Assembly: GCA_020426925.1 (NCBI GenBank)
Contig: JAGQPC010000003.1
Span: forward strand, 1-39,187
DNA: 39,187 nucleotides
Direction: 5' to 3'
Source: Planctomycetales bacterium
GTDB lineage: Bacteria > Planctomycetota > Planctomycetia > Pirellulales > Pirellulaceae
Numbering within the stretch: the stretch's first letter is position 1; each line of letters starts with the position of its first letter. A program made the translations under genes and the position numbers. The notes under the pieces were generated by a model, which did no database searches, was not told the origin of the DNA, and saw nothing but the letters and a program-made list of their open reading frames with translations. Of this stretch, positions 2 through 17,109 are shown piece after piece.

Positions 2-1537
2 TCGGGCATCGTCGAAAACGAAATCCGCGTTCTTTCGGTCAATGATGGAGTCACTTTCGAAGAGTTTCCAGTGGACGGCGGAGTCGTCGAAGTCGAATGT
101 GATCATCCCATCATCGCGAGACTCTATTGGACAGACGATTCGGGACAAACAATCGAACTCCATACGATTAACACGTCGCTGCGAATGGTTCGGCTAGACG
201 GCCAAACAGTTGCGTACCGAATCTTTCATGCAAATAGAATGGCGACTCCATTTCGTGTCGACTTTCGCACGGTCAGCGAAGACATCGAAACGCCTGTCAC
301 AGCACACTGGTCATTCGTGAATGCGAACGGTGAGACCATCCGCGACGGCAACATTACCCTAAGCCCGACTGTTTCCGTGTTTGATTCGGCGACGATGCGG
401 TCGGTTTCTTATCAGGTCAGCGATCCACTGCGCTATTATTGGGTGATTCCAGAAGAAGTCTGTGAGTTTCGCATCGATGCGGATCGAGAAATCCTGGTGG
501 CCGCGTTTACTCGGCCGGCGGACATCACTCGAGTTTTCGCAGCGACAACCCTAGCGGAATCGACCGCGAACGCTGTAACGGAAACCCAAGACTCTGACCG
601 CAGCTGGTTCGTCATTCGCCCAAACCAGTACGAAGAACTTCAAACCAATCATCATACGTGCGTTGTGACCTATCAGCCGCGACCTCCCGAAAAAAACGAA
701 CTGGTTCAAACCGGAGACTACTCTTGGATCAGTTATCAGCCGCACGGGTTGTGGCGTGCGAGGAGAATTCTTTCGCCACGCGATCCAACGTTTCCGGTTC
801 GGGATCAGTCGAGAGCAATGGTTTACGTACGGCTTGAACCGAATCACGAATATGAGGTCGAGTTTGACGATCAGGGCCAGCCGCCAACCATCATTTACGA
901 TCAGCAAGACGTCGGGTCCGAAATTTCCGTCGTCGTTGACGGCAGAGTCGTCGCTGTTCATCGCTGTCGATCTCATCGCGGCGAATTCGCGTTAGATGAG
1001 ATTCCGGACGACGGCAGAATGCTCGAGCTGCGATCGAGTGTCGCGACGCCGCTGTACATGAACTTCGTTTCGACAACCGATGGCTCACTATACCAGCGGC
1101 GTATAGCGTACCGCATGGATAACGGGAAACTAGAGTTTGAATATGAAAAGCACAGCACAGATGAAGAGATTGTGTCAGTGCGTGTTTTTCGTTCCGATTC
1201 GCTCAATCAATCGACGCAACTCGAAATTGCGATCCCAGAACTGGACTTGCAAGACGTCGGGCCGAGAACGCAGTGGACATGGAATGCTAAACGTTACGAA
1301 TGTCGATTAGCGGACGACAGCGAAAGCCTGCTGCTGGACGGATCGGCACAAAACGCTAACAGTGGCGATCTTGCATTCGTGCGTTTTGGCGAGGACGTCC
1401 CTCCTGGAATCTATCGAATTCAGATTTCGCGTTTAGACAAAGGCGATGGGTACGCCGTTCTCTACCGCACCGTCCCACAAATAGAAACTAGAAATGTACG
1501 GATCATGCACCGACGAGAGCTGGAGGATGTTCAATGA
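2..1537 (+). CDS. Beta-rich hypothetical protein, 5'-truncated by window edge
   Basis: The reading frame is open from the first in-frame codon of the window with no stop upstream of the GTG at 71, so the gene begins outside the window and at least 511 residues are visible. I do not recognise the family. The sequence is rich in short alternating hydrophobic/polar stretches, aromatic residues and glycine turns, which suggests beta-sandwich modules of a secreted or envelope protein. Its texture resembles the beta-modules of the very large protein starting at 2625. It ends with an ATGA overlap (1534-1537) with the following gene, so the two are translationally coupled and probably work together. 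The context of a CapB-like synthetase and a putative exporter suggests a role in handling a surface polymer. That role is inference only. Confidence 0.75.
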   Translation, partial: SGIVENEIRVLSVNDGVTFEEFPVDGGVVEVECDHPIIARLYWTDDSGQTIELHTINTSLRMVRLDGQTVAYRIFHANRMATPFRVDFRTVSEDIETPVTAHWSFVNANGETIRDGNITLSPTVSVFDSATMRSVSYQVSDPLRYYWVIPEEVCEFRIDADREILVAAFTRPADITRVFAATTLAESTANAVTETQDSDRSWFVIRPNQYEELQTNHHTCVVTYQPRPPEKNELVQTGDYSWISYQPHGLWRARRILSPRDPTFPVRDQSRAMVYVRLEPNHEYEVEFDDQGQPPTIIYDQQDVGSEISVVVDGRVVAVHRCRSHRGEFALDEIPDDGRMLELRSSVATPLYMNFVSTTDGSLYQRRIAYRMDNGKLEFEYEKHSTDEEIVSVRVFRSDSLNQSTQLEIAIPELDLQDVGPRTQWTWNAKRYECRLADDSESLLLDGSAQNANSGDLAFVRFGEDVPPGIYRIQISRLDKGDGYAVLYRTVPQIETRNVRIMHRRELEDVQ

Positions 1538-2493
1538 ATCACGCTAATGCAAATCGAAAGATCGAGAACGCTGCGCAGCGGACTCGCTGCCACATGAAAC
1601 GGCTGCACGATGCGCGACTAGTCATGCTGATCGCCACTTGCATCCTGTTCTTATTTGATTGTAGTTCGCACGCTGCAAACATTTCCTTGGCAAAAGTGCT
1701 CGAGCAAGCGAGCCATCGCGCCGATTTTGTAAAGCCGACCGATGATGAACTGAACAAGTTCTATGAGACCGCAGTCGACACGATCGCCGCTCGCTCGCCC
1801 TTCGAAGTGCTTCACGAGCGGTGGCAAAACATCGGCTGGGAACTGTCGGAAACAACGCTCAACGACTCGCGAGTTTGGATCATTCATCATCAATCGATGA
1901 ATCGCCGAGGAGCCGGGATCTTCGCCGTTCGTCCAGATGCTGAGGCGAGAATATTGCTGCAATCGCCTCATTCGTTTTACGATAAGTTCACGCGGCCGAT
2001 CGTCGTCCGAGCGTTTGAGCGTTCTACAGTTCGTGCTGCGGCATGGAATTCGGTTCATCGGAAAGTGCAAGATGTGGCTCACGACGAACGCTGTTTCTTC
2101 CACGAATTTACGCGTGCATTTTTGACAGAATCGCAACGGCAACAACAGAATACGTTCGTGATCCAAGTGCATGGATTCTCGCAAGATTCGCGGAAGACGA
2201 CTGTGGGCTCCACGGCAGAAATCATCGTCAGCAACGGAACTCGTTTTCCACCCAACTGGCTACGCATGACGGCGGTGAATTTGCAGTCAGTTACGAGCGG
2301 CGTCAAGCTCTTTCCGACAGAAGTCAGCGAACTCGGTGCCACCACGAACGTGCAAGCACAGCTGGTAAACGGCCACGATGCTGCATTCATGCACGTGGAG
2401 CTATCCGAACCTGCGAGACGGAAACTACGACGTCGCAGTGACACGGTCGACGAATTCCTCAAGTGCGTTTTGGACGCTTACCGAACCATGTGA
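1534..2493 (+). CDS. Secreted putative zinc amidohydrolase (possible polymer hydrolase)
   Basis: A 319-residue protein whose ATG overlaps the preceding stop (ATGA). Residues ~27-47 form a hydrophobic export segment (VMLIATCILFLF), so it is probably secreted or anchored facing the periplasm; an internal Met near residue 22 may be the true start. Spaced motifs PHSFYDKFTR (H146, D150), DVAHDERCFFHEF (D180, H183) and IQVHGF (H213), then LGATTNVQ, look like the metal-binding framework of the N-formylglutamate amidohydrolase/metallocarboxypeptidase-like fold. I recognise this pattern only in general, not a named gene. Beside a CapB-like amide ligase, a hydrolase that trims or releases a gamma-linked peptide polymer is plausible, as PgdS or CapD do in Bacillus with unrelated folds. 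Enzyme class is moderately likely; substrate is inferred. Confidence 0.6.
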   Translation: MNHANANRKIENAAQRTRCHMKRLHDARLVMLIATCILFLFDCSSHAANISLAKVLEQASHRADFVKPTDDELNKFYETAVDTIAARSPFEVLHERWQNIGWELSETTLNDSRVWIIHHQSMNRRGAGIFAVRPDAEARILLQSPHSFYDKFTRPIVVRAFERSTVRAAAWNSVHRKVQDVAHDERCFFHEFTRAFLTESQRQQQNTFVIQVHGFSQDSRKTTVGSTAEIIVSNGTRFPPNWLRMTAVNLQSVTSGVKLFPTEVSELGATTNVQAQLVNGHDAAFMHVELSEPARRKLRRRSDTVDEFLKCVLDAYRTM

Positions 2494-2500
2494 AAGGTTA

Positions 2501-2584
2501 ACGGCTGCGCGAAATGTATGGATTGAGTAGAGCTTGCGGCTTGGCGTAGCGGTGTCGCCGCGGTCCTACTCAAAACGCAGCCGT
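2501..2584 (+). other. Nested inverted repeats forming an extended intergenic hairpin
   Basis: Three complementary arm pairs nest inside each other in the 131-bp gap between the hydrolase and the giant envelope protein: ACGGCTGCG (2501-2509) with CGCAGCCGT (2576-2584), GAGTAG (2525-2530) with CTACTC (2566-2571), and GCGGC (2536-2540) with GCCGC (2557-2561). The mRNA can fold into one long interrupted hairpin with a 16-nt loop. There is no T-tract, so it is not a standard terminator. It could be an RNA-stability or processing element that sets the downstream gene's expression apart from the upstream pair, or a mobile palindromic repeat. Confidence 0.5.
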
Positions 2585-2624
2585 TTCCCGGGCAAAACGG
2601 CCTTCTGCAAGTTCGGAACGCGCG

Positions 2625-5600
2625 GTGTCTTTTTTCTCTGGCCTAGAATTAAAACGGAAACACTGTTTCCAAATCGAAGCATGTCCATCGGACAGGAGAG
2701 GTCTTCAGCCAGACGCTAGCTTGCTGTCGGCTGCAAGGAATGCGTATTTAAGACTGTCACTGTCCGCTTTCCTCGTTTTTGTTACGGCAATCATTTTCGT
2801 GGTCAGACTTGATGGCAGCGAACTCGATCCCATTGCGCTCGCTCGACGAGGTTCTGAGTGTACGCCGGTTGTCTGGGAAAACATCGAGGACAATGAGCAA
2901 TGGATTTGCGGCTGCCGCCCGATTTACGATCGGCAATCGCGGACCCATTGGGTGACTCTCCAGCCAGGACAATTCTCTGAATTCATCATCCCACCCCGTG
3001 CAATGGTGCGCATCGTTGCCGGCAATGGCGAAGACCTGTCCTCGCAAGACGTCTGCGTCTGGATTTCGGAGGGCTCGTTTGCCTATAAAGAATTGAAAAC
3101 GGCAAACAGCGTCGACGGAAAATCGGTCGTTGCTATTCCCGATTCGTTTTCTACTGCGATTGGCCGAGTCACTTGCCCCTTATATCGAACCGCTTGCCTG
3201 AAAGTCGCGATCTACACTTCGCGGCACATTGCACTTGAAGACGTCGACACGTGGCAGTGCCCTTTACCCGGCTGCGGATATGAAGTCACGATCGACTACC
3301 AAGATGGATCAACGCCGAGTCGCTGGTCAACACTTGCAGAAAACGATGCCATTGCAATCGATGTCGTCGGTCCAACCTGGGTACGAACACAGGCACGCCA
3401 TAACTACAGACCAACCGACACGTATGCTGATCAGCCGTTTAAATTGTATGCTTCGATCGATGGGCAGCTGACTCGTGTCATCGACTGCGAGCCGTCTTTG
3501 GAACAATACCGGCGTGCGTACGTCGACGGCGTTGACCAAACTGTGTCGACCATCGAAAGCGGTTACGTTCTTGTTCCGGCTGGCCACCATCGGCTGACGA
3601 TCGAATCGACGGCTTGTTGTCTGTTTCGAGCGCACTGTTGCGACCAGAACTTGTGTCGACGCATTAATCGCTCCGGATGGAGCCTTCAGCCTCGGTCGCT
3701 AGAACAATTCGCGAGCGTGTGGGAGATCCAGGACGACGTTGTCACGAACCAGTTCGCAATCGAACGCAACGAGCCTTCATTGCTGCGACTTGCGTTACGA
3801 TCAGCTCGTGACAATCGCTATCGACATGGAGGAGTCCGCGGTTACGAATTGTTGCGGGCAGCGGCGGCGAATCGGCCAGACCAACCGCAAATCGCGAGTG
3901 AGGCTCAAAAGCTGCGGTCATCGTATACATATTATCGCAATATTTTGCCGCTGTCCGGCGCGCAACCGTTGCAACACGAGACCGCTTACTTCATCCGTCG
4001 ACGGCTTCGCAATTCGTCCGCCGACTATGCTGACGTGCATATTTCCGAGTCGATGATAGATGAAGGTTTACGGCATGTATCCGAGGCGAAGTTCTCACTG
4101 CTATCTTCAGACGCGACGAATCCGAATCGTTACTATTTTCCGCCGGACGCTGCGCCAACTCACCTCCGACTGGTAGTGCGGCACAATCCGACGCTCGATT
4201 CAAATAGCACTGTGTGGGTTCAGCTGGGCGAATCGCCGCCGCAGCGAGTCCTCATCAAACCGGTGTGTTCGCTAGGTCAAGAGCACTTCATCCTGTCGAT
4301 CGCCGATGCGGCGATCACCGCATTGCAGTGGCAGCATCGAGAGACCGATCTTGGCACGATCAGCGGCCCATTTGCGCTGCACAAAGATCCGGGAGTCCTG
4401 TGCGACGTCGGCACCGTGGAGTTTCGGCTGCAAGAGAGCGAGCGGCACGTTTCTGTCTGGTGCGACAATCCCGATACGCAGGTCGCAGTTCAGTTACGAG
4501 TCTCCAAGCCGTATCAACTCACGGAACAATCGTATCGAAATTCAGTCGGCCGATTGAAGATCGATGAGCACGGTTTACTCGATCTTTTCGCAGAAGGACA
4601 GAATTCAAACTACGTTGCGCCAGTCGCCGATCCAATTGCATTAGTCGATTTGCAAAACCATTGGCTCCCACTTCGGCGCCGGCTCGAGTCGCTTGTGAAG
4701 TCGCTTGAACGTGGCAAACGCAGTAAGACGCCAGACACAACTCCGTGGTCGGCAGCAGATTCAGGAACGCTCGAAGTAGCACGCAGTTTGATCAACAAGC
4801 GCGAGTGGTTGCCCGCGCTGGAGGCATGGTCTCGAATCGTTGATCGACTGCCGGAGGATGTTCGCGCCGAAGGAGTCAACGCGAAGACTCGGTGTCTGTG
4901 GGAATTGAACGAACGATACTTGTGGATGACTGAACTGACGGGGTATTTTCTGTTCAACGACGATCCCGCCGTCCGAGAGTTCGCCGCTGAAACGCTGATT
5001 CAAAATGCCCGCTACGATCGAGACGCCGAACAGACTGCGATGCGAGTCCTCGCCACGCAAATCATGCGAGACAAAAGTTTCGTGGCGGCCACGCGACTGG
5101 CTGCGATGTTTTTTGAAAACGGTGAGATTTGGCAAGCTCTGCAATTGCTGCTGCTTGTGCCGCGCGACCAACGCCCTCACGAGCTCGTGTGCAAACTTGC
5201 GTTGAAAGAACGTTGGTGGCGCAGCTATTCGGATGCCGTTGATGCTCTGCCGAGCGAGCCACTCAAGCATTTTTACACTGCGCTGTACTCACTCCGCTCT
5301 GGTTGCTACCAACAGGCCGAATCGCAGTTTGCGCAATCAGGCGATGCAGGTTCCCAGTTTCTTGCTCATTGGAATTGGGGTAAGGAGATCCTACGCGGGC
5401 TGCGCTCGGCCGATTTACATAATAGGCTTCGAGCAATCGAAGCCTGGGAGCATTACTCGGATCAGTATCCGGGATCTCGAGTTTGGAGTTCCGCGGACAC
5501 GCGTGTTGCCAGTACGGCAGGAAACGTAACCGTCGAGTCGCAGGAAAGCGGCGCACTGTCGGACTACCATCTCGCATCGCCTGAACGCCCTCTGGAGGTG

Positions 5601-8384
5601 GAAGTGCAGGGACCAACACGCCTGCGAGTACAAGCCCGCCCGCTGTTTGCGTCGATGGAGTCGCCTGAACTTGATGGCTGGATTTCGGTCGACGTTTCTG
5701 GACGCAAACACGTAATCGCCGTCCAAAATTCGTATCCGCGAGACAACACAAAACTGCTGGGGTTGCAAGGCATGGCAGCTGGCGTGACGGTCGAAAAAGT
5801 CATCGCTCTCGGCCCAGGACGCCATCGGCTAAAAGTCAAAGGCGACGGATTCTCGCTGATCGCGCGAGTCGAACTTGAACGTCCGGAATTTCTGTTGCCC
5901 GTGTTGCCGCCGCTGTCTCCTGCTGTCGTCGATCTGGCGGTCGCTGGAAATCTTGAACCGACCAAAACAATCCTGAACACGCGGCCTGCAACGAAGAAAC
6001 GGCGATTGCGTCCTCCGATGCAAGTCAGGATTTTGCCGAGCGATTGTAATCGCCCGCCCGTTTACACGTGCGCTACGCGACACTGTTTCGCGAAGAGTCA
6101 TCTGAAAGACCTTCCTCCACTCGCTGCATTCCGCGTGCGTGAAATGCGTCTTGATGGAGCGCAACAGCTGCTGTCAATGAACGCCAGTCTAGTCTCAGAA
6201 ACAGTCGCCCGCGAACTCCTGTCACGATTCGGCACGATAAACGACCTGCTCGGAAAACTCGAATCGTACGAGCTGGACGTTGTCGATGTGGTCGCGGGCT
6301 TAATGGCGCGAGGTGCGAACGCGACAGCGGCCGAGTTGTGCGAAAAGCACTTCTTGGCGAACAGCGAAGTCTCGCGACACACGAACGTCGCGTTGGCATT
6401 TCTGATCAGCCAAATGCCAGACGCAAATCTGCGAATGACAGCACGAATGTTCGAAGTCGATCGCGCCACCCCCGAAGCCGATTTGCTTCGGTCGATAACG
6501 CAAAGTGGATTTGAGTGGCGTTCGTTGCGCGAGTTCCAACAATCGGCAGGTATCCATCAAGTTCCGATTGATGGCTGGTCCCCCGAGTCGCATCAATTGC
6601 GAGTCCGGTCTGCATTGTCGTCTCGAGCTGGTGATATCGATTTCAGCCTTACCGCTTCAAACGAAGCACACATCGATGTCGTGAACACTCGCACGCAGCC
6701 GGTCGAGATCGCATTTTCGCGAGCTCAACTGTCGTACCTCCAACAGAACGAATTCGTTGAAGTCCGCTGGCGAGTTGACGATGGTCCGCCGGAATCTATC
6801 CATTTGCCGGATTCGCCGCAGCCACAGACTATTCGAATTCCGGTCGACGATGGGCGACATCAACTTGTCCTGTGGACCGTCGACTCGAATGCCAATCACT
6901 TTGTTCACGCAAAGATGACGCACATCGAGCCGGCTGTCACTCCGAATGGCCAGCAACTAGGAATAACTCGCCAACGTCTCTATCACGTCGCGACGCGAGA
7001 TGAGCCGGTTCGGTTTACGGTGTTCGGTCCAACAGTGGTACGCATTGACGAATTTGATCCTGGTCAGGCGATCTCAAGATCTCGGCATGTTGCCGTCAAG
7101 GAATCGCAACGCGAAATCACGTTGCACGCTGGCCACGGTGCAGACCGCCTTTACCGCGTTTCCGAATTGGTGCGTGCAGATCGCGAGTCTCCGCCGGTAT
7201 TTCGCGTTCCGGAAGTCACGCAGCCGCTTCCGACCGCGTGGATTGATACAAACGTCCAGGTTACGTCTATCGCGAATCATTCTTCGGCTGTGTACACATC
7301 TGATTGGATCACGGCCAACTTTATCCAACGTGGTGATCGCTTGACGAGTTTTCATAACGTGGGCGATGTAAATTCAACGCACCTAAATGTAACCGGCCTT
7401 GATCGCTGGCTACCGCTCGGATCACACGAGGACGGAACGTGGGAGATTGGAACAGAGCTAACTTACCGGCAAGCCGTCGAGGAAAGTGATTTTGGCAACG
7501 CCGCCGATCGATATGCGGAGGCTTTCGCGACTCGCTACTTCTTTGATCGCTGGCAAGACAAACACTACCGCGATAAATACTTGGCTCGATATCGCGACGA
7601 CGCAGGTGCATCGTTCGGCTGGGTCCACGACGAATGGTGGACAGCCAGTTCTGCGAAAGAGCGACCTTTCGGTTTGCATTGGAATACGACAGCATATGCT
7701 CAAGTTCCTGGCGGACCTGTTTCTTCGGCAGACTCCGATCTGGAATGGTCGCTGGGAACCAAAGTCGAATGGCGTCAACGTTTTACGATTACCGAGACGT
7801 TTCATCACGACTTTACGGCGACTGCATTCGGTCGAATCATTAGCTTGGACGAAAACAAGTACAAACCGGGCCGCGTCGACCAAGATGTGTTCACTCCGTA
7901 CAAGCGGAACCATCCGGCCGGCTTTCGCTTCGTCGATCGCTATGTGTACGAACGATGCGAAGACTCGAAATGGTGGGTCTCGCCAGCGGTAGCGACGAAC
8001 ACCGACTTCAATCCGCTGCGACCAGATTATGTTACGGTTCGCACCGGCTGGTCGCAGATGCTGGGCGACGTCAAGTTAGAAGTCGCCTACCGCTGGGGAC
8101 GTTTTTTTGCGGACGAAGATCGGCGCAGCAGCACGACTCAGCACTTGATTTTTGCGGACGTGACACTGGAGCGATGGAGGTCACTTGGTCGGCGGTGGGA
8201 GATCGGACTGCGTGTTCGGCAAGACCTAGAAGACGAAGGCGGGAGCGCCTTCGTTACGATTTCTGATTTTCGAAGCCATGGACGGGAGTATCGCGACTTT
8301 CACTCGTCGCAATTGCCGTTTGGTTCTCTGCGAAGGCAGCGAGCCATCGATGATTGGTTGAGTGGAACGGCACAAACGAATTAG
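2625..8384 (+). CDS. Giant envelope protein: beta-modules, TPR-like region, C-terminal barrel-like domain
   Basis: About 1,900 residues. A hydrophobic signal or anchor lies at residues ~43-62 counted from the GTG at 2625; the in-frame TTG at 2721 would place it near the N-terminus and is a likely alternative start (1,887 residues). A beta-module opening with GPT then V/L-V/R-R recurs near residues 249, 996 and 1468. Residues ~706-949 are helical and TPR-like, with more helices at ~1190-1390. From ~1576 to the end the sequence alternates aromatic and polar residues with many Trp/Tyr/Arg, like strands of an outer-membrane barrel. TPR plus barrel is the layout of polysaccharide exporters such as PgaA and BcsC, though no homology to these is visible. 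It lies 12 bp before the CapB-like gene, so it may export that enzyme's product. Domain order is seen; export is inferred. Confidence 0.65.
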   Translation: MSFFSGLELKRKHCFQIEACPSDRRGLQPDASLLSAARNAYLRLSLSAFLVFVTAIIFVVRLDGSELDPIALARRGSECTPVVWENIEDNEQWICGCRPIYDRQSRTHWVTLQPGQFSEFIIPPRAMVRIVAGNGEDLSSQDVCVWISEGSFAYKELKTANSVDGKSVVAIPDSFSTAIGRVTCPLYRTACLKVAIYTSRHIALEDVDTWQCPLPGCGYEVTIDYQDGSTPSRWSTLAENDAIAIDVVGPTWVRTQARHNYRPTDTYADQPFKLYASIDGQLTRVIDCEPSLEQYRRAYVDGVDQTVSTIESGYVLVPAGHHRLTIESTACCLFRAHCCDQNLCRRINRSGWSLQPRSLEQFASVWEIQDDVVTNQFAIERNEPSLLRLALRSARDNRYRHGGVRGYELLRAAAANRPDQPQIASEAQKLRSSYTYYRNILPLSGAQPLQHETAYFIRRRLRNSSADYADVHISESMIDEGLRHVSEAKFSLLSSDATNPNRYYFPPDAAPTHLRLVVRHNPTLDSNSTVWVQLGESPPQRVLIKPVCSLGQEHFILSIADAAITALQWQHRETDLGTISGPFALHKDPGVLCDVGTVEFRLQESERHVSVWCDNPDTQVAVQLRVSKPYQLTEQSYRNSVGRLKIDEHGLLDLFAEGQNSNYVAPVADPIALVDLQNHWLPLRRRLESLVKSLERGKRSKTPDTTPWSAADSGTLEVARSLINKREWLPALEAWSRIVDRLPEDVRAEGVNAKTRCLWELNERYLWMTELTGYFLFNDDPAVREFAAETLIQNARYDRDAEQTAMRVLATQIMRDKSFVAATRLAAMFFENGEIWQALQLLLLVPRDQRPHELVCKLALKERWWRSYSDAVDALPSEPLKHFYTALYSLRSGCYQQAESQFAQSGDAGSQFLAHWNWGKEILRGLRSADLHNRLRAIEAWEHYSDQYPGSRVWSSADTRVASTAGNVTVESQESGALSDYHLASPERPLEVEVQGPTRLRVQARPLFASMESPELDGWISVDVSGRKHVIAVQNSYPRDNTKLLGLQGMAAGVTVEKVIALGPGRHRLKVKGDGFSLIARVELERPEFLLPVLPPLSPAVVDLAVAGNLEPTKTILNTRPATKKRRLRPPMQVRILPSDCNRPPVYTCATRHCFAKSHLKDLPPLAAFRVREMRLDGAQQLLSMNASLVSETVARELLSRFGTINDLLGKLESYELDVVDVVAGLMARGANATAAELCEKHFLANSEVSRHTNVALAFLISQMPDANLRMTARMFEVDRATPEADLLRSITQSGFEWRSLREFQQSAGIHQVPIDGWSPESHQLRVRSALSSRAGDIDFSLTASNEAHIDVVNTRTQPVEIAFSRAQLSYLQQNEFVEVRWRVDDGPPESIHLPDSPQPQTIRIPVDDGRHQLVLWTVDSNANHFVHAKMTHIEPAVTPNGQQLGITRQRLYHVATRDEPVRFTVFGPTVVRIDEFDPGQAISRSRHVAVKESQREITLHAGHGADRLYRVSELVRADRESPPVFRVPEVTQPLPTAWIDTNVQVTSIANHSSAVYTSDWITANFIQRGDRLTSFHNVGDVNSTHLNVTGLDRWLPLGSHEDGTWEIGTELTYRQAVEESDFGNAADRYAEAFATRYFFDRWQDKHYRDKYLARYRDDAGASFGWVHDEWWTASSAKERPFGLHWNTTAYAQVPGGPVSSADSDLEWSLGTKVEWRQRFTITETFHHDFTATAFGRIISLDENKYKPGRVDQDVFTPYKRNHPAGFRFVDRYVYERCEDSKWWVSPAVATNTDFNPLRPDYVTVRTGWSQMLGDVKLEVAYRWGRFFADEDRRSSTTQHLIFADVTLERWRSLGRRWEIGLRVRQDLEDEGGSAFVTISDFRSHGREYRDFHSSQLPFGSLRRQRAIDDWLSGTAQTN

Positions 8385-8396
8385 GCGAGGCGATCT

Positions 8397-11300
8397 ATGT
8401 TCAAGCGATCGTGCTCGACCGTGCCATCCGTCAAGGCGTCGCGGATACGTGAAGTGTTCTTGCGTGACATGCCAAAGTACCAGGCACGGCTTTGCTCCCA
8501 GATGATTTCCGATTCGTTGAGCGAATTCTGGAATTGGCACAACGCGTTAATCGACGAGCAGCTGCGACTGGAAGCTCAGGTTCCGAAAGCTGTCCGCAAA
8601 CGGTGGGCGGAAGAAGCTGGAAAACGATTCGACCGTCGCGATCCGGAAAACGTTCCTCTACGGCTGCTAGTTGATTTCTGTTTGCACTACTGTCGCCAGC
8701 TGGTCAACGAGACGAACTCGCTCCGCCAACAGCACGCCGAATTTCGCAGGCAATTTAGCATCGCTGAAACCGAAACCGAAAAACGAACTGTTTTGCTCAA
8801 CGCGGCCGCGATTCTAGGGCGCTCGTGGTGGCAACTGCAAGGTGATCGCCGCGCGACAAAACGCTGGCTGTCCGAAGACGCGCTCCACGACCGCTTCGTG
8901 CGCCGGATTGGCAAAACAGAATTGCAACTGGCGTTCGCGTTGGAGCGGTTAGGAACGTTCGTATGCCAAGTGCTCTTTGTCGCCAAGCAAAATAAGACAG
9001 ACTTGCTTGGCGTATGGAACGCGCTGAACATGGACGGACTTTTCCAACGCGTCTGCGCATTAGAAGCCGACCCTCGTGTCCACGCGGCTCTAGTGCGAAG
9101 TTTCAATCGGGCGGTCGGGCCGGTCGAAATCATCGACTGTCGATCGTTTCTTCGCGAGGCGAATCTATTGTGGCTCGGCAAAGCCGCAACCAGTGAAACG
9201 CTCGACGTTTGGGTCCAGGTAGAATCACTGACGTTACTGCGCAAGACTGCACCCAGCTCTTTTGAAACCGTTATCGACTGGCGACTAAAGCAGATCAGCG
9301 GCGGGGACGATATGTTTCTGCGGCGGCGGGCGGTGCAGTTGGCGTTTGAAGCGATGGACGAATCGAGTCTCGCGAGCTTGATCCCGCACATGAAAAATGA
9401 CCCGAGCGTTTTTGTGCGGCAAAAGTACGCAGAAATGTTGTGGACGCTACCCGCCGAAATGGGAGGCCCGGCGATTCGCGATCTGTTTAGAACAGATGCG
9501 TCTCATCAGGTGAGAGCGGCTTGCCTGGTTGCGATTCCGGCAAATGTTGACCGAATTCGAATTCGCGAAACTGTTCAAGATATCTTGTCGCGAACGCTTG
9601 CAGCAGACGAGCACGAGTTTGTTCTGCGAACGGCAATTCATGTTTGTGTCACATGGGTGCAGCTTCACGTGGAGTTGGCTCGCTCGGGCGATGCCTCGGC
9701 CAACGATTACGTAGATTGTTTGATTCAACAATGCAAGCCTCACCTCCGCCAGCTCGCGGAGTTCTCCGATTCCACGCCAATGCGTCGTTGGGCAACCGCG
9801 GCACTCGAACGCGTGCGGCTCGCGCGTGACGGCCGTTTGTCAGAGCTCCACGACCGGCTTCACGCGATGGTTCACTCAATACCTTTAGGCAAAAGTCGCA
9901 CATACAGCAGACTACGACTACGAGGATACTCGGACGAAGAAATCGGGCGAACGTTGGCCTTGTTGGCTCAGGACGATTTCGGGTTCGACGTGAGCCGAGG
10001 TTGGTTCTTTGATCGAATCACGCGAGGCCCGGTCTTTGGGTTGCGGCTGTGGCGAGTGTGGTTCGAGTTTCGCAACGCGGCAACCGACAAACGACAAGCG
10101 TTTCGACACACGATCGGTCGCATTGGACAAGGGCGACTTCGCGTGCCGTCCAGAATCATGGCCGAGTTGAGTCCAACGAAAGTCCCAGGCGAGCCGCTAT
10201 TTGTGTCGTCTGAAGAAACTTGGCGGCCGTACGTGCCGCTTGTGGACGATTTCGTGTCGGTACTAAACCAGAGCTTCTTCACGCGTGCGCCGTTTCGGTT
10301 CTACACGAACGAAGGAGTCACGACGGTCCTGTGTCCACGAAAGCTACGGGAACGTATTCGAGCAACAGTGAGCTTGACGTTCGCGTTTGCCAAGCTCGCG
10401 AGATTGCGAAACTGGAACGAGAATTCATCTCACAATCCGGGCGACTATCTTTCTGCAATCCGGAAACTCGGATTCAGTGTCGAGTTCCAACCTTATGGAT
10501 TTGGCGAATCGCGACCAGACGCGCCGGTATTGCAAGATTTTTCTGTTTTGCGATTCTTTGGTGCCATCGGTTTCTTCTTGACGCCAAAGCAACAAGAAGA
10601 ATTCAAATCGTTACTCTACGATTACGCGTTCTACTTCAATTCTTCGTTTGAAAACTCACTCGAACATCTATTCCTATTTGCAATCGTGTTTTTGGCGGTC
10701 GTGCTTGTGAAACATCTTTACTCAAATGCTACTCTGGCACTCGCACGACGACGAATTCCCATTTCGATTGGCGGCTGGGGAACGCGAGGAAAATCGGGCA
10801 CCGAACGCCTCAAGGCGGCGCTGCTCGGAGGCATGGGCTATGGACTCGTTTCGAAAACGACCGGTTGCGAAGCGATGTTCATCCATGCCGATCCACACGG
10901 GCAGCCGCTCGAGATTCCGCTGTTCCGGCCGTACGACAAAGCAACCATTTGGGAGCAGCGTAATCTTCTGATCATGTCTGCCAAGATGCGCCCGTCCGTG
11001 TTTCTATGGGAATGCATGGGGCTGACCCCGTCATACGTAGACGTGTTGCAACGCCAATGGACTCGCGACGACCTTGGCACCATTACCAACACGTATCCCG
11101 ATCACGAAGATCTGCAAGGGCCGGCTGGCTACGACGTTGCGACAACGATTTCCGGCTTTGCTCCGCGCCGCTCGCACATCATCACAACGGAACAACAGAT
11201 GCGGCCGCTGGTTCGAGAAAGCTGCCATCGCGTGAAGTCTTCGTGCGAAGGAGTCGGTTGGCTGGAATCCGGACTGGTCGCAGAGGACATTCAGAGTCGC

Positions 11301-12758
11301 TTCCCCTACGCAGAACACCCCGACAACATCGCACTTGTTGCCGCGATGGCGCAGCATCTTGGTTGCGATTACGATTACGCCATGAAAGCAATGGCCGACT
11401 ATTTGGTTGCCGATCTTGGTGTACTGAAAACGTATCCCGTGTCTCGGATCTCTCACCGAGATCTAGAATTCACTAACGGAATGTCTGCCAACGAACGATT
11501 TGGTTGCCTCGGCAATTGGAAACGAACGGGCTACGCAACACAGGATCCTCATGCTGAACGAGGCGTTTGGATTTCCACGGTGGTGAACAACCGAGCTGAT
11601 CGCGTGGCTCGCTCGCGCGTATTCGCGAACATTCTGGTAGATGACATTTCTGCTGATCGTCATTTCTTGATTGGTAACAACTTAAAAGGCCTGATCGGAT
11701 TTATCGGCGACGCGTGGGAAACTCGTGCTAGCAAAATGACGCTTTGTCACGAAGACGAATACGACGCCGCAGTTGCTCTGCGCGAACTGGAGCGAGCCGC
11801 CAAAGAATTCCGCCAACCGTTCACTGCAGACCATGTTGCAACGTTCATGCGAATCATGGTGTCTGCCGTGGTCGAATCGGAGCCGACCGTTGAACGCATT
11901 GTAGACGAATGTGCCAATTCGCCAGAACGATTGTGTGCTGCTTTGGGCGCAGAAAACGTGGACTCTGGCACAACCAACGCGATTGTCGCTCGCTATCAAG
12001 AGCAGCTGGCTGGTCTCGCGGAAGTCGAAGAACTCAAACATTTGATCGAGTCGGAAGCGAAGCTAGAAGCTCTGGACAAAGCATACCGCGCTTCCGCGAA
12101 AAAATGGTTCGATCGCAAAATCGTGGTCATTGAGAATTACACTGCCACGGGCGAACAAGTCATTCGGCGAATCGTTGACGAGACTCCACCCGGTATCAAG
12201 AACCGCGTGATGGGAGTGCAGAACATCAAAGGAACGGGGCTCGATTTCGTTTACCGCTTCCAGGCGTGGGCCGCATGTTACGAAGCGTGTGACCTTGTTC
12301 GCAGTAGAGACATTCAAGACGTGCACAAGGGTTTGCAAGCTCTATCACTGATGCCGCAAATTGGCCAACTGTGTGACGCCTATGTTGCCGCAACTTTGCA
12401 GCAGCTGGAAAGTTCGGTCTTCGCGAGTGATCCCGAAGTCACTTCGCTGTCGCAAAACGTGTCCAATCGTTTGGAAGAATCGCGGCAGGAACTGGCTGAA
12501 TCACTTTCGGCGGGCGACGAGCAGTCGTCTGGATCCGGGCGGTTCGATTGGTTACTCGACACGTTGGAGCAGTACTTCGAAATCAACGACGCCGTCCGTC
12601 GCCGAAACGCTGCTGATCAAGTCTACGCAGATCTCGCAACCGAGCGGATCAGCCGCCACCAAGCAGTTGAGCAAATTCGCAAAATCAACAAGCGTCAAAA
12701 AGGCGGCTGGCTCGGCGACAGCGTCAAGGACTTCTTCGCAAGATTCAGCCGCTCGTAG
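8397..12758 (+). CDS. CapB/PgsB-like Mur-ligase synthetase with large N-terminal extension
   Basis: A 1,453-residue protein with a purine-rich stretch (GCGAGG) just upstream of its ATG. The C-terminal half carries a Mur-ligase-type ATPase domain of the poly-gamma-glutamate synthetase CapB/PgsB kind: P-loop GTRGKSGT (residues 795-802), SKTTG, WEQRNLLIMSA, LWECMGL, TNTYPDHEDLQGP and VNNRADRVARS. CapB uses ATP to activate a carboxylate for gamma-amide bond formation. A transmembrane helix (~753-776) precedes it, placing the ATPase on the cytoplasmic side. CapB is normally ~400 residues; here ~750 residues of helical, HEAT-like sequence lie in front and ~250 behind. No CapC or CapA partner is visible, so the extension may replace or recruit one. 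The superfamily is well supported; the polymer made is unknown. Confidence 0.85.
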   Translation: MFKRSCSTVPSVKASRIREVFLRDMPKYQARLCSQMISDSLSEFWNWHNALIDEQLRLEAQVPKAVRKRWAEEAGKRFDRRDPENVPLRLLVDFCLHYCRQLVNETNSLRQQHAEFRRQFSIAETETEKRTVLLNAAAILGRSWWQLQGDRRATKRWLSEDALHDRFVRRIGKTELQLAFALERLGTFVCQVLFVAKQNKTDLLGVWNALNMDGLFQRVCALEADPRVHAALVRSFNRAVGPVEIIDCRSFLREANLLWLGKAATSETLDVWVQVESLTLLRKTAPSSFETVIDWRLKQISGGDDMFLRRRAVQLAFEAMDESSLASLIPHMKNDPSVFVRQKYAEMLWTLPAEMGGPAIRDLFRTDASHQVRAACLVAIPANVDRIRIRETVQDILSRTLAADEHEFVLRTAIHVCVTWVQLHVELARSGDASANDYVDCLIQQCKPHLRQLAEFSDSTPMRRWATAALERVRLARDGRLSELHDRLHAMVHSIPLGKSRTYSRLRLRGYSDEEIGRTLALLAQDDFGFDVSRGWFFDRITRGPVFGLRLWRVWFEFRNAATDKRQAFRHTIGRIGQGRLRVPSRIMAELSPTKVPGEPLFVSSEETWRPYVPLVDDFVSVLNQSFFTRAPFRFYTNEGVTTVLCPRKLRERIRATVSLTFAFAKLARLRNWNENSSHNPGDYLSAIRKLGFSVEFQPYGFGESRPDAPVLQDFSVLRFFGAIGFFLTPKQQEEFKSLLYDYAFYFNSSFENSLEHLFLFAIVFLAVVLVKHLYSNATLALARRRIPISIGGWGTRGKSGTERLKAALLGGMGYGLVSKTTGCEAMFIHADPHGQPLEIPLFRPYDKATIWEQRNLLIMSAKMRPSVFLWECMGLTPSYVDVLQRQWTRDDLGTITNTYPDHEDLQGPAGYDVATTISGFAPRRSHIITTEQQMRPLVRESCHRVKSSCEGVGWLESGLVAEDIQSRFPYAEHPDNIALVAAMAQHLGCDYDYAMKAMADYLVADLGVLKTYPVSRISHRDLEFTNGMSANERFGCLGNWKRTGYATQDPHAERGVWISTVVNNRADRVARSRVFANILVDDISADRHFLIGNNLKGLIGFIGDAWETRASKMTLCHEDEYDAAVALRELERAAKEFRQPFTADHVATFMRIMVSAVVESEPTVERIVDECANSPERLCAALGAENVDSGTTNAIVARYQEQLAGLAEVEELKHLIESEAKLEALDKAYRASAKKWFDRKIVVIENYTATGEQVIRRIVDETPPGIKNRVMGVQNIKGTGLDFVYRFQAWAACYEACDLVRSRDIQDVHKGLQALSLMPQIGQLCDAYVAATLQQLESSVFASDPEVTSLSQNVSNRLEESRQELAESLSAGDEQSSGSGRFDWLLDTLEQYFEINDAVRRRNAADQVYADLATERISRHQAVEQIRKINKRQKGGWLGDSVKDFFARFSRS

Positions 12759-12763
12759 TCGAA

Positions 12764-12778
12764 GGGAATGATCTTCCC
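12764..12778 (+). terminator. Small hairpin after the CapB-like gene
   Basis: GGGAA (12764-12768) and TTCCC (12774-12778) form a 5-bp stem six bases after the stop codon of the CapB-like gene. No T-run follows, so intrinsic termination is doubtful. It may only protect the 3' end of the transcript. Confidence 0.25.
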
Positions 12779-12878
12779 GCATCTACAACTGGTCATGCGC
12801 TGGGAACAAACCATAGCGATCTACTTTTCTGTGAGCACCGAATAGATCTTTGAGCACAGATTAGTAGTCTGTACCAGC

Positions 12879-13055
12879 TTAATCTTCGGGTTTGTGGAAG
12901 TTGCTAACTCCCTGACGGACGGGATCTTTAGCAAGATCCACTACGAGCTGCCCGAACACCAAGATGGGTTGGACTACTAGCACCGCGTGGGCTTCCTGTT
13001 CGACATGAGTCGCTTTCGCGCCGAATTGCAAAAGCCGCTTGGTCGCCTTACTCAT
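12879..13055 (-). CDS. Small hypothetical protein coupled to the upstream TPR/thioredoxin gene
   Basis: A 58-residue ORF whose ATG (13053-13055) lies inside the last codons of the preceding minus-strand gene, giving an 8-bp overlap (GATGAGTAA). It starts MSKATKRLLQFGAKATHVEQ and has a central hydrophobic stretch (AVLVVQPILVFGQLVVDLA), then ends HKPED. The segment is probably an amphipathic or membrane-associated helix. The tight overlap suggests translational coupling. Longer readings of this frame that extend upstream into the neighbouring gene are artefacts. I do not recognise the family, and it could be a chance ORF. Confidence 0.45.
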   Translation of the reverse strand: MSKATKRLLQFGAKATHVEQEAHAVLVVQPILVFGQLVVDLAKDPVRQGVSNFHKPED

Positions 13056-15108
13056 CGCGGTACGGCATTTTCTTCCGGAAGAGCTCCAATCGAGCCTGGA
13101 TCGAGGCAGCCTGATCGGACTGCCCATTTGTTGTGAGGATCTTGATCGCTTTCGATGCGGCAGCGGTGGCTTTCTTGAAGTCGCCAGTTTCCGCGTAGGC
13201 ACAGGCCAGCGTGTCGAGAAACGCGGGCGAGCCATACTTTGTTTGCTTGCACACATGGTCAGCCCATTTGACTGCCTCGGTGCCATTACGATTTTCGGCC
13301 TGCGGATGAGTGGCCAAGATCCAGGCCAAGTTATTCGCAGCGAGCGTCATACCAGGCTGAAGTTCAACCGTGTGACGGTAAGTTTGAATTGCCTTATCGA
13401 GCTGCCCGTTAACTCGGTACGCGTTCGCCAGGTTATACCAGCACGCGACGTCTTTTGGCTGAGCCTTCACGACCTTATTGAATCGCTCGATCGCGGCTGA
13501 CGCATTTCCTTGAGCCATCCGAATGAACGCCAACTTCCGCTCGGTAGAAACATCGCTGGGGTTAATCCTCGCAGCTTCCTGAAGTTGTTCCGCGGCCTGA
13601 TCCAATTGACCGATCTTTGCCAGCAGACTTGCGTAGTCGGACCGAAATCGAAAATCGTCAGGTCGATACCCGATCGCTCTGCGAAACGCTTCCTGCGATT
13701 CATCGATCTGTTCTTGATCGCGAAGTAGCACGGCCAGCACGTAATACAAATCACCCGGCTCTTGGCCATCTGCATTTGTCGGTGATTGGGAACCAAGCTG
13801 AGTGTGGCGTTCCAGGTAATCGGTTCCGCTATTCACCATTGCTTCGTCGATGAAATGCGAAGTAACAGGCAGAGGGTCTGCAGCAAGCGGCGGCATGACC
13901 CATTTGCCAGGAAATGGAGATGTGTACGTCCGCAGTTCGCTATCGGGAACATTTAATAGCTTCACATCAGTCAGCAGTCGGCTGATTTCGACCGGCCCTT
14001 GATATAGAACGCAGACGAATCCGCGTTCATCGACAAGAAAACTGGCCGGGACCGTTGACGTTTGCCAGCGGTCAAAGATCGCTCGCTTGAGCACATCCAG
14101 ACTGCGAACAAGTTCAACCGTTCCAGACACATTCGTAAACGGAAACCCGGTGCTTGCCAACACTTGTTCTGCACCGCTCGAATCGCCTTCAATGTTGTCC
14201 AGGTTTACGGCAAGGACATTCAAGCCCGCCTGACGAATTTGGTCGGCCTGATCGGCGTAGTCTTTCAATTCCTGTGCACAAGTATTGCAGGTTGCAGACC
14301 AGATCGTGATGACTGTTGGCCTGTCGATCATCGTGTTGAGTGGTTGTTCCATCCCGTCGGCGCGCAGAGACGGAAGCAGTCGCCTCGCCGGGAGTACGGT
14401 TCTGGCAACACTGGTTGACGCAAGCGTTTCTTGTTGCGACTCCTTCAGTTGTTTTCGATTTGTCGGCGGGGTCCATGAATTCACGCTGTTGCTTTGCTGG
14501 TCGATAATGTATCGGTGATCTACTTCAAGCCCGTCGTATTGCCGTTGCTCGTCACCAGGCCAATGAACAACAACGTGGCGAATCTGTTTCGAATTGCCCA
14601 ATCCGAAATGCAGCCAGCTGCTGGACTGTGACAAGAACGCGTCTCCGGCGGACAGTGTTTTAATCAACGGCAGCGAGTTGTCGCCATCAAGGACAACTTC
14701 GACTCGCGCACCAACGGCATCTCGATTCGTAGTTTTGCCGTCACCGTGCAGTTTGATCGAGATGAAGTGGTTTTCACGTGCACTGTTGTTCCGCAGGAAG
14801 CGGATCCGAGGAGCGGTACGATTAGTCACCCAAATATCGAGATCGCCGTCGAAATCCCAATCGGACAGGGCGACTGCTCGACCATCGTCGGCGAAGTCTA
14901 AACCGCTGGCCGCCGAGATGTCAGCAAATCGCTCGTTGCCGGTATTGCTGTGTGTATTGAGAAACACACAATTCCGTTCGTGACCACTAAACGAGCGATC
15001 TTCGTGCAACAAGCGATTGAGCGCCTTCCATCCTTGGCGATAACGCATCATCGCACGCTCGGAAAAATCATCGATCGGTGACTGCGACACGACCTGTCGC
15101 CAATACAC
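13048..15108 (-). CDS. VCBS/ASPIC-UnbV, TlpA-like thioredoxin and TPR protein (3' half of a TGA-split ORF)
   Basis: As a separate ORF it starts at a GTG (15108) and encodes 686 residues. It opens inside the propeller region: a further FG-GAP/VCBS repeat (DWDFDGDLDIWV), then the ASPIC/UnbV domain (~110-190, with NRDAVGARV and LHFGLG), a TlpA/ResA-like thioredoxin domain with a CNTC active site near 273-276 and a VPASFLVDERG cis-Pro loop, and TPR repeats from ~450 to the end. It has no signal peptide or membrane anchor of its own. It is in the same frame as the gene ending at 15112, separated by a single TGA. That argues for one ~1,353-residue polypeptide made by readthrough or selenocysteine insertion. 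A GGAG at 15120-15123 would alternatively permit reinitiation at the GTG. Confidence 0.85.
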   Translation of the reverse strand: MYWRQVVSQSPIDDFSERAMMRYRQGWKALNRLLHEDRSFSGHERNCVFLNTHSNTGNERFADISAASGLDFADDGRAVALSDWDFDGDLDIWVTNRTAPRIRFLRNNSARENHFISIKLHGDGKTTNRDAVGARVEVVLDGDNSLPLIKTLSAGDAFLSQSSSWLHFGLGNSKQIRHVVVHWPGDEQRQYDGLEVDHRYIIDQQSNSVNSWTPPTNRKQLKESQQETLASTSVARTVLPARRLLPSLRADGMEQPLNTMIDRPTVITIWSATCNTCAQELKDYADQADQIRQAGLNVLAVNLDNIEGDSSGAEQVLASTGFPFTNVSGTVELVRSLDVLKRAIFDRWQTSTVPASFLVDERGFVCVLYQGPVEISRLLTDVKLLNVPDSELRTYTSPFPGKWVMPPLAADPLPVTSHFIDEAMVNSGTDYLERHTQLGSQSPTNADGQEPGDLYYVLAVLLRDQEQIDESQEAFRRAIGYRPDDFRFRSDYASLLAKIGQLDQAAEQLQEAARINPSDVSTERKLAFIRMAQGNASAAIERFNKVVKAQPKDVACWYNLANAYRVNGQLDKAIQTYRHTVELQPGMTLAANNLAWILATHPQAENRNGTEAVKWADHVCKQTKYGSPAFLDTLACAYAETGDFKKATAAASKAIKILTTNGQSDQAASIQARLELFRKKMPYRDE

Positions 15109-15114
15109 ACTTCA
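15084..15114 (-). promoter_or_regulatory. In-frame TGA followed by a bSECIS-like hairpin
   Basis: On the minus strand the codons around the TGA (15114-15112) read T-G-D-L-stop-S-V-Y-W-R-Q-V-V, open on both sides. Eleven bases after the TGA a stem GCGACA (15100-15095) pairs perfectly with TGTCGC (15089-15084), enclosing the loop GGTCG. The loop starts 17 nt after the TGA. The general bacterial SECIS model calls for a stem-loop roughly 16-37 nt downstream with a G in the first two loop positions. The E. coli fdhF element has a GGUCU loop at nearly the same distance. All of this is seen in the sequence; selenocysteine incorporation is inferred, because selA, selB, selC and selD are not in this window. 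Confidence 0.5.
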
Positions 15115-17109
15115 CAAGTCTCCGGTGTCTTCCGCCGTGATGAATCCGTTCGCGACAATCAGATCATCCCAGCCGTCACCGTTGAGATCCGCGAATCGAG
15201 AGCCCCAGGCCCATCGGCCCATGGTGACTCCTGCCTGAACACTGACGTCGCGGAACCCTTCTTTCGCGTTAATGAACAATGTGTTTCCCCGAGCGTGGCG
15301 CTGAAACTGTTCTCGCACATTTGAATCGACCGAGGTTTTGAACTGCCGTTGATAAGTGATGCGATTACCCGCAGCCGAAAACATGTTGGAAACGTACAAG
15401 TCCATGCGGCCATCACGATTTACATCTGCCCAGTTCGCAGACATGCCGGCCGACATGTCTTCGACATTCAGTTCTGGAGCGACATCGGTAAAGCGGCCGT
15501 TGTCGTTGCGATAGAGATTGTTGCGACCGTAATCGTTGGCAACATATAAATCGGGGTCGCCATCGTTGTCGTAGTCTTCCCAAGCGGCAGCGAAACTGTA
15601 GCGAGAATTGTTTTGGTCCAATCCAACTTCGGATGTCACGTCCGTGAACAGCCAATTGCCGTCATTCCGCAACAGCATATTCTTACCGCCGTTGTTAGCG
15701 TCGTGGTACGGAACCGGTTCGCCCATTGCACCTTGTCGAACGCTCGAAGCAGGAGGATTGTAGCCGCACGCGTAGACGTCAACGTCGCCGTCGAGATCGT
15801 AGTCGGAGGCCGAAATCGAAAACGATTGTGCTTCGCTGCTCGTTCCGAATTCGATCTGAAAATGACCTTGCCCGTCGTTCGACATCAAGAGGATTCGCCA
15901 TTCCTGCGCGATGACAAGATCACGGTCACCGTCGTTGTCGAAGTCAACAAACAACGCACTTGCACAATAATCCAGCCAATCGGCACCACTTTCGCTAGTT
16001 GCGTCGCGTAACGTTCCATCGGCGTTTTGAATGAACAAGCGGTTTGGAAGGCCGCCTTGTTGGCAGACGTACAAGTCTTCTAGTTGGTCACCATTCACAT
16101 CGCCGATCGCAAGCCCATGATTTGCAACTGGGTCCAGCCCCAAATCACGCGCCAGTCGAGCTCGCCAATAATCGGTTGAACGCAAGAACTGTTGGTTGTA
16201 TGCAAACGTGTTGCCGAGTACCGACGCCGTACAATCCGAAAACATTTTCCCATCGTGGCCGCGATGCACCACGCGCTCGTAGTCGGTGACCTTAAGCGAC
16301 AAAAGTTTTGGCACTGCAGTGGCAGTTGACCAATCGAGAGTCCACTTTGCGTTAACCTGCAACGTTCCTGATTCGGATTCGCCTACCGATTGAAAGTAAA
16401 TCGTAGTCGTTGCTTTGTCGCCTTCGGTCGAAATTGTGACAGGCTTGAGCTTCGTTCGTTCGACAACACCATTGCGATAGAGTCGTCGAAATTCTCCAAT
16501 CGCTGACTGAAGAGCGTGTGGCCCGCGTAAGTTGCCGGCTGTCGAATTGACGGCGCCAAGCGACTCAGCACGTTCGACTTGAAGAGTCGCGTCTTCAAAA
16601 ACTTTGGTGATCATAGCGGGATGCAGCGGCGAACAAACGAATTCATCAGTGACAAGTTTATCGGGCAGTGCTTTCGACTTGTCCGGTGATTCTTCAAACA
16701 GCTTTCCTAGATTTTTGAGCTGCTGGTTCGACGCTTCATTGAACGCTTCGGTCTCCCAGCCATCAGCGGCCGGATCAATTCGACGATAAGCATCGGCGAG
16801 TGGCGCAACGTAAGATTGCTGCGTTGCCCCTGGAGCCTGAACGCTGACCTCGTTTGTTGGAACTCGATCGGTGGTGGCGTCGCTCGTCGTAGTTGTTTCA
16901 GAAACAGTTTCTTTGCTGTCGTCGGCGTTTGTGTTGTCGGCACTAGCTTCGGTTTGCTTAACCTCGGCCGGGCCACGAAAGAGATGCCAGCCTCCGTAGA
17001 GCACTAGCGGGGCGACCACTAGGCCAATGGCCCACACCGGAAATCGCCGAGGCTCAGCGTGGGCTGGATGTTCGGGTTTTGCTTTGTTCTGATTGCGTTT
17101 TCTCGACAT
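15112..17109 (-). CDS. Membrane-anchored FG-GAP/VCBS propeller protein (5' half of a TGA-split ORF)
   Basis: 665 residues up to the TGA. A Lys/Arg-rich N-terminus is followed by one transmembrane helix (~25-45, VWAIGLVVAPLVLYGGW), then a Thr/Asp/Glu-rich linker. An alpha/beta region (~110-310) comes next. From ~340 onward come repeated calcium-binding-type VCBS/FG-GAP motifs: DVNGDQLEDLYV, DFDNDGDRDLVI, DYDLDGDVDVYA, DYDNDGDPDLYV, DVNRDGRMDLYV and DLNGDGWDDLIV. This is the CRTAC1/ASPIC-UnbV type of extracytoplasmic propeller common in Planctomycetes. The frame ends TAEDTGDL then TGA, and the same frame resumes at once with further propeller sequence, so this half looks incomplete alone. Start is the ATG at 17109, with a TATAAT box 36 bp upstream. 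Confidence 0.88.
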   Translation of the reverse strand: MSRKRNQNKAKPEHPAHAEPRRFPVWAIGLVVAPLVLYGGWHLFRGPAEVKQTEASADNTNADDSKETVSETTTTSDATTDRVPTNEVSVQAPGATQQSYVAPLADAYRRIDPAADGWETEAFNEASNQQLKNLGKLFEESPDKSKALPDKLVTDEFVCSPLHPAMITKVFEDATLQVERAESLGAVNSTAGNLRGPHALQSAIGEFRRLYRNGVVERTKLKPVTISTEGDKATTTIYFQSVGESESGTLQVNAKWTLDWSTATAVPKLLSLKVTDYERVVHRGHDGKMFSDCTASVLGNTFAYNQQFLRSTDYWRARLARDLGLDPVANHGLAIGDVNGDQLEDLYVCQQGGLPNRLFIQNADGTLRDATSESGADWLDYCASALFVDFDNDGDRDLVIAQEWRILLMSNDGQGHFQIEFGTSSEAQSFSISASDYDLDGDVDVYACGYNPPASSVRQGAMGEPVPYHDANNGGKNMLLRNDGNWLFTDVTSEVGLDQNNSRYSFAAAWEDYDNDGDPDLYVANDYGRNNLYRNDNGRFTDVAPELNVEDMSAGMSANWADVNRDGRMDLYVSNMFSAAGNRITYQRQFKTSVDSNVREQFQRHARGNTLFINAKEGFRDVSVQAGVTMGRWAWGSRFADLNGDGWDDLIVANGFITAEDTGDL

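Follow-up and report, generated by a model that had tools for sequence, protein, structure and literature searches.

Poly-gamma-glutamate (PGA) capsules are made by CapBC-type systems. In the CapsuleFinder model CapB and CapC are mandatory and CapA is accessory, and the lines that set out the PGA model name no outer-membrane part among its components (PMC5542703). PgsB and PgsC are enough for PGA in Bacillus subtilis, with PgsA dispensable (PMC6029982). CapBC capsule systems have already been noted as abundant in Planctomycetes (PMC5542703), and therefore the presence of CapBC is not itself new. Here we describe a five-gene operon, capC-beta-hyd-giant-capB, of a Planctomycetales bacterium. Four of its genes lie in the window, the whole stretch of 39,187 nucleotides that was analysed. 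The operon is an expanded form of the CapBC systems that adds a dedicated hydrolase and a candidate exporter for the outer membrane; it is not a new enzyme class. It is probably a dedicated machine for polyamide synthesis and secretion, in which a CapBC-type synthase, a trans-envelope export channel and a periplasmic hydrolase would act together.

Two-membrane bacteria that make polyglutamate, such as Fusobacterium, must carry the polymer over the outer membrane. No channel for this step was named in the open literature that we found. Hydrolases accompany exopolysaccharide operons (BcsZ, PgaB, PelA, AlgL). PgaB-dependent polymer processing with the TPR domain of PgaA is the stated subject of one paper (PMC9384988). 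The operon offers a concrete candidate route with synthase, channel and matching hydrolase together, and since the three are in one operon, the export question is testable by gene deletion.

Organization of the operon

The window is the entire contig C1228 of a fragmented genome (G000; 82.7% complete, 6.2% contaminated). Four open reading frames (ORFs) of the operon were called in it:

2 to 1537, + strand: beta, C-terminal 511 residues (511 codons, open at the 5' end); from the ORF and homologues in the same position in relatives
1534 to 2493, + strand: hyd, secreted zinc-hydrolase-like protein of 319 residues; from the AlphaFold2 fold and invariant columns
2625 to 8384, + strand: giant, secreted envelope protein of 1,919 residues with a TPR-like middle, beta-sandwich domains and a C-terminal barrel; from the ORF and its family
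8397 to 12758, + strand: enlarged CapB/PgsB of 1,453 residues with a HEAT-like N-terminus, a hydrophobic segment, the ligase and an extended C-terminus; from TIGR04012, HEAT_2 and motif alignment

The four genes are co-directional, as a preliminary description of the window had stated, with an ATGA overlap of beta and hyd (1534-1537) and a 12-base gap between giant and capB (8384/8397). The tight spacing that it reported applies to these two junctions. The gap between hyd and giant is 131 bases, counted to the GTG start used, and thus the spacing is not tight at every junction. Since the following gene (13048-15108) is on the opposite strand, the operon ends at 12758.

Contig C310 was found by searching G000 with a CapC relative. 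It terminates in a CapC-like gene and the first 324 residues of Beta, and its last 16 bases are identical to the first 16 of the window, with the reading frame kept. This overlap is short, but full-length Beta proteins also align with the two halves of Beta in succession. Because C310 joins the left end of the window, the operon is capC-beta-hyd-giant-capB. The beta-rich partner gene of the preliminary description therefore exists but is a fragment in the window, its N-terminal 324 residues being on C310. The same extension overturned the statement that CapC is not a partner, since capC is the upstream member. CapA had also been left out, and here the search agreed: CapA (PF09587) was unmatched in the whole G000 genome (about 83% complete), and the same search was positive in 7 of 14 controls. 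The whole Beta is a beta-rich protein of about 835 residues with a single N-terminal hydrophobic segment, which lies in the C310 part. Its homologues occupy the same position in G034, G191, G140, G130 and Verrucomicrobiota.

Conservation of the gene set

In G191, another planctomycete (L063), all five genes were found on one locus (capC 128-3397, beta 3394-5877, hyd 5874-6758, giant 6755-11884, capB 11881-16098), and all four junctions are 4-base overlaps. The set, whole or as contig pieces, is also present in G034, G140, G103, G115, and G130, and a Verrucomicrobiales metagenome-assembled genome (L019) carries it with hyd absent from the operon. It is thereby found in several Planctomycetota families and in Verrucomicrobiota. 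Two genomes of the same phylum as the L019 genome (G488, G500) encode a Beta-Hyd fusion adjoining capB, and capC is also present in G488. A second, diverged set of capC-beta and giant-capB genes is held by G000 itself on C890, C375, and C765 (L027, L025, L026). Its CapB is about 40% identical to the first, a distance similar to that to other phyla, and contamination is a possible source of either set.

Co-occurrence was sampled in 392 genomes of the phylum. Enlarged CapB was detected in 15 of them (G000, G103, G115, G130, G140, G174, G177, G191, G204, G222, G268, G290, G346, G371, and G377), while the remaining matches of the CapB search were canonical PgsB or weak. A profile of the C-terminal (barrel) region of Giant matched 14 genomes, all within these 15, and none of the other 377 (hypergeometric 8e-25); loci of the same genomes went into the profile, so that the recovery is partly circular, and kinship inflates the hypergeometric figure. 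The genes thus co-occur, contrary to the independent scatter across genomes that the preliminary description had set against its own proposal. The pairwise identities of CapB and Giant were also correlated (r 0.95, seven gene sets), with 0.68-0.85 for other gene pairs. Hyd is looser. It was present in five of the 15 enlarged-CapB genomes and in three in which enlarged CapB was not detected (G132, G161, G242), of which G161 holds capC and beta pieces. Among plasmid records only canonical PgsB was matched, covering 21-22% of the query.

The genes might be mere chance neighbours on one contig. The window has a contig end and is one copy only, and the Hyd relatives in G132, G161, and G242 would fit this explanation, although G161 has the capC and beta pieces. 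Against it, gene order and 4-base overlaps are conserved over two phyla, a second set is present in the same genome, and the genes co-occur and diverge in a correlated manner. We dropped it after the synteny analysis as having practically no chance of being right, and an ad hoc reading of the neighbourhood was rejected on the same conserved synteny.

CapB and CapC

Residues 762-1099 of CapB matched the PgsB model TIGR04012 (E 1.5e-55, 188.5 bits), a match that bears out the CapB likeness first proposed, though it is below the cut-off of the model. We aligned 15 enlarged and four canonical CapB/PgsB sequences. The motifs are kept in PgsB order (GTRGKS P-loop, KTTG, FRP, ECMAL, DH.D..GP, NG..AN, N.RADR, and MG..NI.G.GLD), and three features of the ligase part were located:

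10668 to 10724, + strand: single hydrophobic segment immediately ahead of the ligase domain, at the same place as in canonical PgsB
10770 to 10796, + strand: ligase P-loop GGWGTRGKS, aligned with HVNGTRGKS of canonical PgsB
12210 to 12248, + strand: C-terminal PgsB motif MGVQNIKGTGLDF (canonical MGMANIAGIGLDLV), from the motif alignment

The substrate region reads TGCEAMF in enlarged CapB and TGTLPRM in canonical PgsB. The N-terminal part of about 700 residues is HEAT-like, with HEAT_2 matches in 8 of 8 relatives (best 1.9e-11). In several families the HEAT part and the ligase of CapB are separate proteins. A PDB sequence search with CapB gave nothing useful.

In the CapC on C310, PF14102 matched two stretches (E 4.5e-38), and the C-terminal part is a long tail. 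Within the tail are two weak, degenerate copies of the Hyd domain that no longer have PH and HGF (whole-protein E as low as about 1e-12). The occurrence of hydrolase-like copies inside CapC ties Hyd to the synthase, and these copies may bind polymer. A degenerate domain pair of this kind, whose zinc-site histidines are gone, was also seen in the C-terminal tails of the CapC at L027 (6336-9728) and of relatives. A literature match for 'CapC' to a Lipocone paper (PMC12419801) was dropped because it was due to the word CapCone.

G000 also carries a canonical pgsB-pgsC-gamma_Glu_sys cassette on contig C170 (L030, 4648-7528). It is above the cut-offs of TIGR04012, TIGR04011, and TIGR04332, and its PgsB scored 474 bits with TIGR04012. 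Since a canonical cassette coexists in this genome, the enlarged set may serve another purpose.

The predicted barrel of Giant

Giant has a hydrophobic segment close to its N-terminus and two further regions of interest:

4722 to 5654, + strand: TPR-like helical region, from TPR_16 in relatives
7431 to 8273, + strand: predicted 14-strand outer-membrane beta-barrel, from AlphaFold2 and fold comparison

The TPR part that had been proposed was only partly recovered: TPR_16 matched 3 of 8 family members, and the window copy is without a Pfam TPR match. For the barrel-like C-terminus the prediction was firmer. An AlphaFold2 model of residues 1283-1919, made with 15 sequences, folds into a confident barrel of 14 strands at model residues 323-601 (the last 280 residues or so), with a predicted local distance difference test score (pLDDT) mostly of 85-97. 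Ahead of the barrel are beta domains modelled with lower confidence, together with a disordered linker. The closest solved structures were CymA (Z 20.0, 262 residues) and OmpG (Z 19.1), and the exopolysaccharide porins PelB (Z 15.1), BcsC (14.7), and PgaA (14.2) were also matched. Among viral proteins, the fold search with the barrel gave just generic barrels with poor alignments.

A barrel fold alone proves no function, and the argument for export rests on the operon context. Co-occurrence and the predicted barrel fold together back the preliminary proposal that a synthetase, an exporter-like barrel and a hydrolase share one operon. One could also imagine that CapB and CapC add a short gamma-glutamyl chain in envelope or cell-wall modification, with Giant as an adhesin-like protein or scaffold. 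The TPR-like and beta-sandwich parts suit a scaffold, and some relatives keep CapB without Giant. However, the high-confidence 14-strand barrel, its structural neighbours PelB, BcsC, and PgaA, and the constant partnership of CapB with Giant in Planctomycetota argue against this function, which we consider very unlikely.

Hyd and related proteins

Sequence searches with Hyd gave nothing useful: there was no match to PF05908 or any other sequence family, none of use among PDB sequences with a Hyd profile, and none in PHROGs. The placement of Hyd therefore depends on fold comparison. Its AlphaFold2 model (pLDDT 77, predicted template modelling score 0.80) matched zinc-hydrolase folds with Z 13-15 over 171-191 residues. 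These were 2odf (Z 15.2, 191 residues, 3.2 A), the N-formylglutamate amidohydrolase 2q7s (Z 13.4), and the PGA hydrolases YndL with PGA (5onj, Z 13.0) and PghP (3a9l, Z 13.0). The prediction thus favours the putative zinc amidohydrolase that had been suggested from the sequence. H132, D136, H199, and E275 (A1 numbering) are invariant in six Hyd sequences, and the PH...D, HG, and H.E motifs follow or end predicted strands, as the fold predicts. By conservation, the candidate residues are:

1966 to 1983, + strand: PHSFYD, invariant H and D (candidate zinc-site residues)
2170 to 2178, + strand: HGF, invariant H (candidate zinc ligand)
2392 to 2406, + strand: HVELS, invariant H and E (E a candidate catalytic base)

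The fold bears on the nature of the polymer. The same architecture could make a polymer other than PGA, such as a polyamide of another residue or linkage or one bearing side chains, with a hydrolase to match. The canonical cassette of the same genome (PgsB, PgsC and 'system protein'), which passes every cut-off, the different substrate region of CapB and the lack of a PF05908 match in Hyd all speak for it. On the other hand, the nearest solved folds of Hyd include three PGA hydrolases and N-formylglutamate amidohydrolases, which act on glutamate-type substrates. We regard another polymer as possible, though rather unlikely.

No Hyd was found in G130. Its capC is preceded, two genes away on that strand, by a gene for a 259-residue protein with a signal-like N-terminal segment (L065, 13060-13836), and a CHASE2 sensor gene stands between them. 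The 259-residue protein has a partial match to PF05908 (Gamma_PGA_hydro, E 0.0046) and is possibly a replacement of Hyd.

Neighbouring genes

On C310, about 14 bases separate the capC frame from the end of the gene directly upstream, which encodes a CHASE2-domain sensor (E 1.5e-13; L062, 4138-6831). Similar genes also stand ahead of capC in G130 and G204. Since these genes recur upstream of capC, an envelope sensor may control the operon. A neighbouring gene encodes a DUF1559/N-methylation protein, of a kind typical of planctomycetes, which fits a planctomycete origin. Further along the window, the - strand at 13048-17109 encodes a UnbV/ASPIC-thioredoxin-like-TPR protein beside an FG-GAP protein (a CRTAC1-like pair), and a 1,263-residue protein at 24681-28472 has an N-terminal patatin-like phospholipase domain.

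Proposed function

Gene content, order, co-occurrence and motifs come from sequence, and the barrel and hydrolase folds are predictions. From these we infer that the operon directs synthesis of a polymer, that this is gamma-polyglutamate and that its way out is the barrel. Judging from their families, CapB, an ATP-dependent Mur-type ligase, and CapC would polymerise an amino acid, most likely gamma-linked glutamate, and pass the chain through the inner membrane. Beta, anchored in the inner membrane and periplasmic, and the large tail of CapC might guide the chain in the periplasm. Giant would span the periplasm and the outer membrane, its TPR-like and beta-sandwich parts docking the polymer and its predicted barrel releasing it. 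Secreted Hyd, with its predicted hydrolase fold, may trim or clear the polymer, as BcsZ, PgaB, PelA, and AlgL do in exopolysaccharide systems.

Several observations weigh against a synthesis-and-secretion machine of this kind. Both synthase proteins are under their family cut-offs (CapB 188.5 bits with TIGR04012, equivalog cut-off 222.7; CapC 68.8 bits with TIGR04011, cut-off 96.45), and the CapB residues after KTTG are unlike canonical PgsB. The single hydrophobic segment of CapB would place HEAT and ligase on opposite sides of the membrane, yet the split HEAT proteins have no clear signal peptide. The zinc site of Hyd is a candidate site, deduced from conservation, and Hyd was not detected in several Giant-bearing genomes. 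Finally, no giant was seen in the fetched flanks of the small genomes G488 and G500, where CapB is present. Because these two keep CapB and the Beta-Hyd fusion, Giant is not universal.

We still prefer a polyamide synthesis-and-secretion machine, and the interpretation in the preliminary description is partly supported, being largely right apart from CapC. The operon could further represent the first outer-membrane export pathway dedicated to a polyamide made independently of ribosomes, in which a PGA-type polymer made by CapB and CapC is threaded through the Giant barrel. It would then be a convergent counterpart of cellulose, poly-N-acetylglucosamine (PNAG) and Pel secretion, spread in Planctomycetota and Verrucomicrobiota. 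We judge this wider claim to be evenly balanced between true and false.

Comparison with known systems

The operon shares the CapB ligase motifs and the CapC membrane protein with the CapBC(A)/PgsBC(A) systems of Bacillus and others. Unlike in those systems, its CapB bears the HEAT-like N-terminal part of about 700 residues, its CapC consists of two CapC-domain matches fused to a large tail that harbours degenerate copies of a hydrolase-like domain, and CapA was not found, while Beta, Hyd, and the giant barrel are added. The ligase and CapC are homologous to those of the canonical C170 cassette. That cassette encodes proteins of 405 and 210 residues with no barrel gene seen alongside, whereas the window set is below the cut-offs.

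Hyd resembles PghP/YndL (PF05908) and N-formylglutamate amidohydrolases in its predicted fold and its invariant H..D, H, and H.E motifs. Unlike PghP/YndL, it is without a sequence-family match and is linked to a producing operon, not to a phage.

Like the BcsC, PgaA, and PelB systems, which have TPR-bearing porins, the operon combines an inner-membrane synthase, a predicted outer-membrane barrel, preceded by a TPR match in some relatives, and a putative periplasmic polymer hydrolase. The synthase differs in being a Mur-type amide ligase and not a glycosyltransferase, and none of the five operon genes matched a glycosyltransferase family. Giant differs in its 14 predicted strands and additional beta-sandwich domains. 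The likeness is limited to fold and plan. The operon suggests that the layout of synthase, channel and hydrolase known from exopolysaccharide secretion evolved anew for polymers of amino acids.

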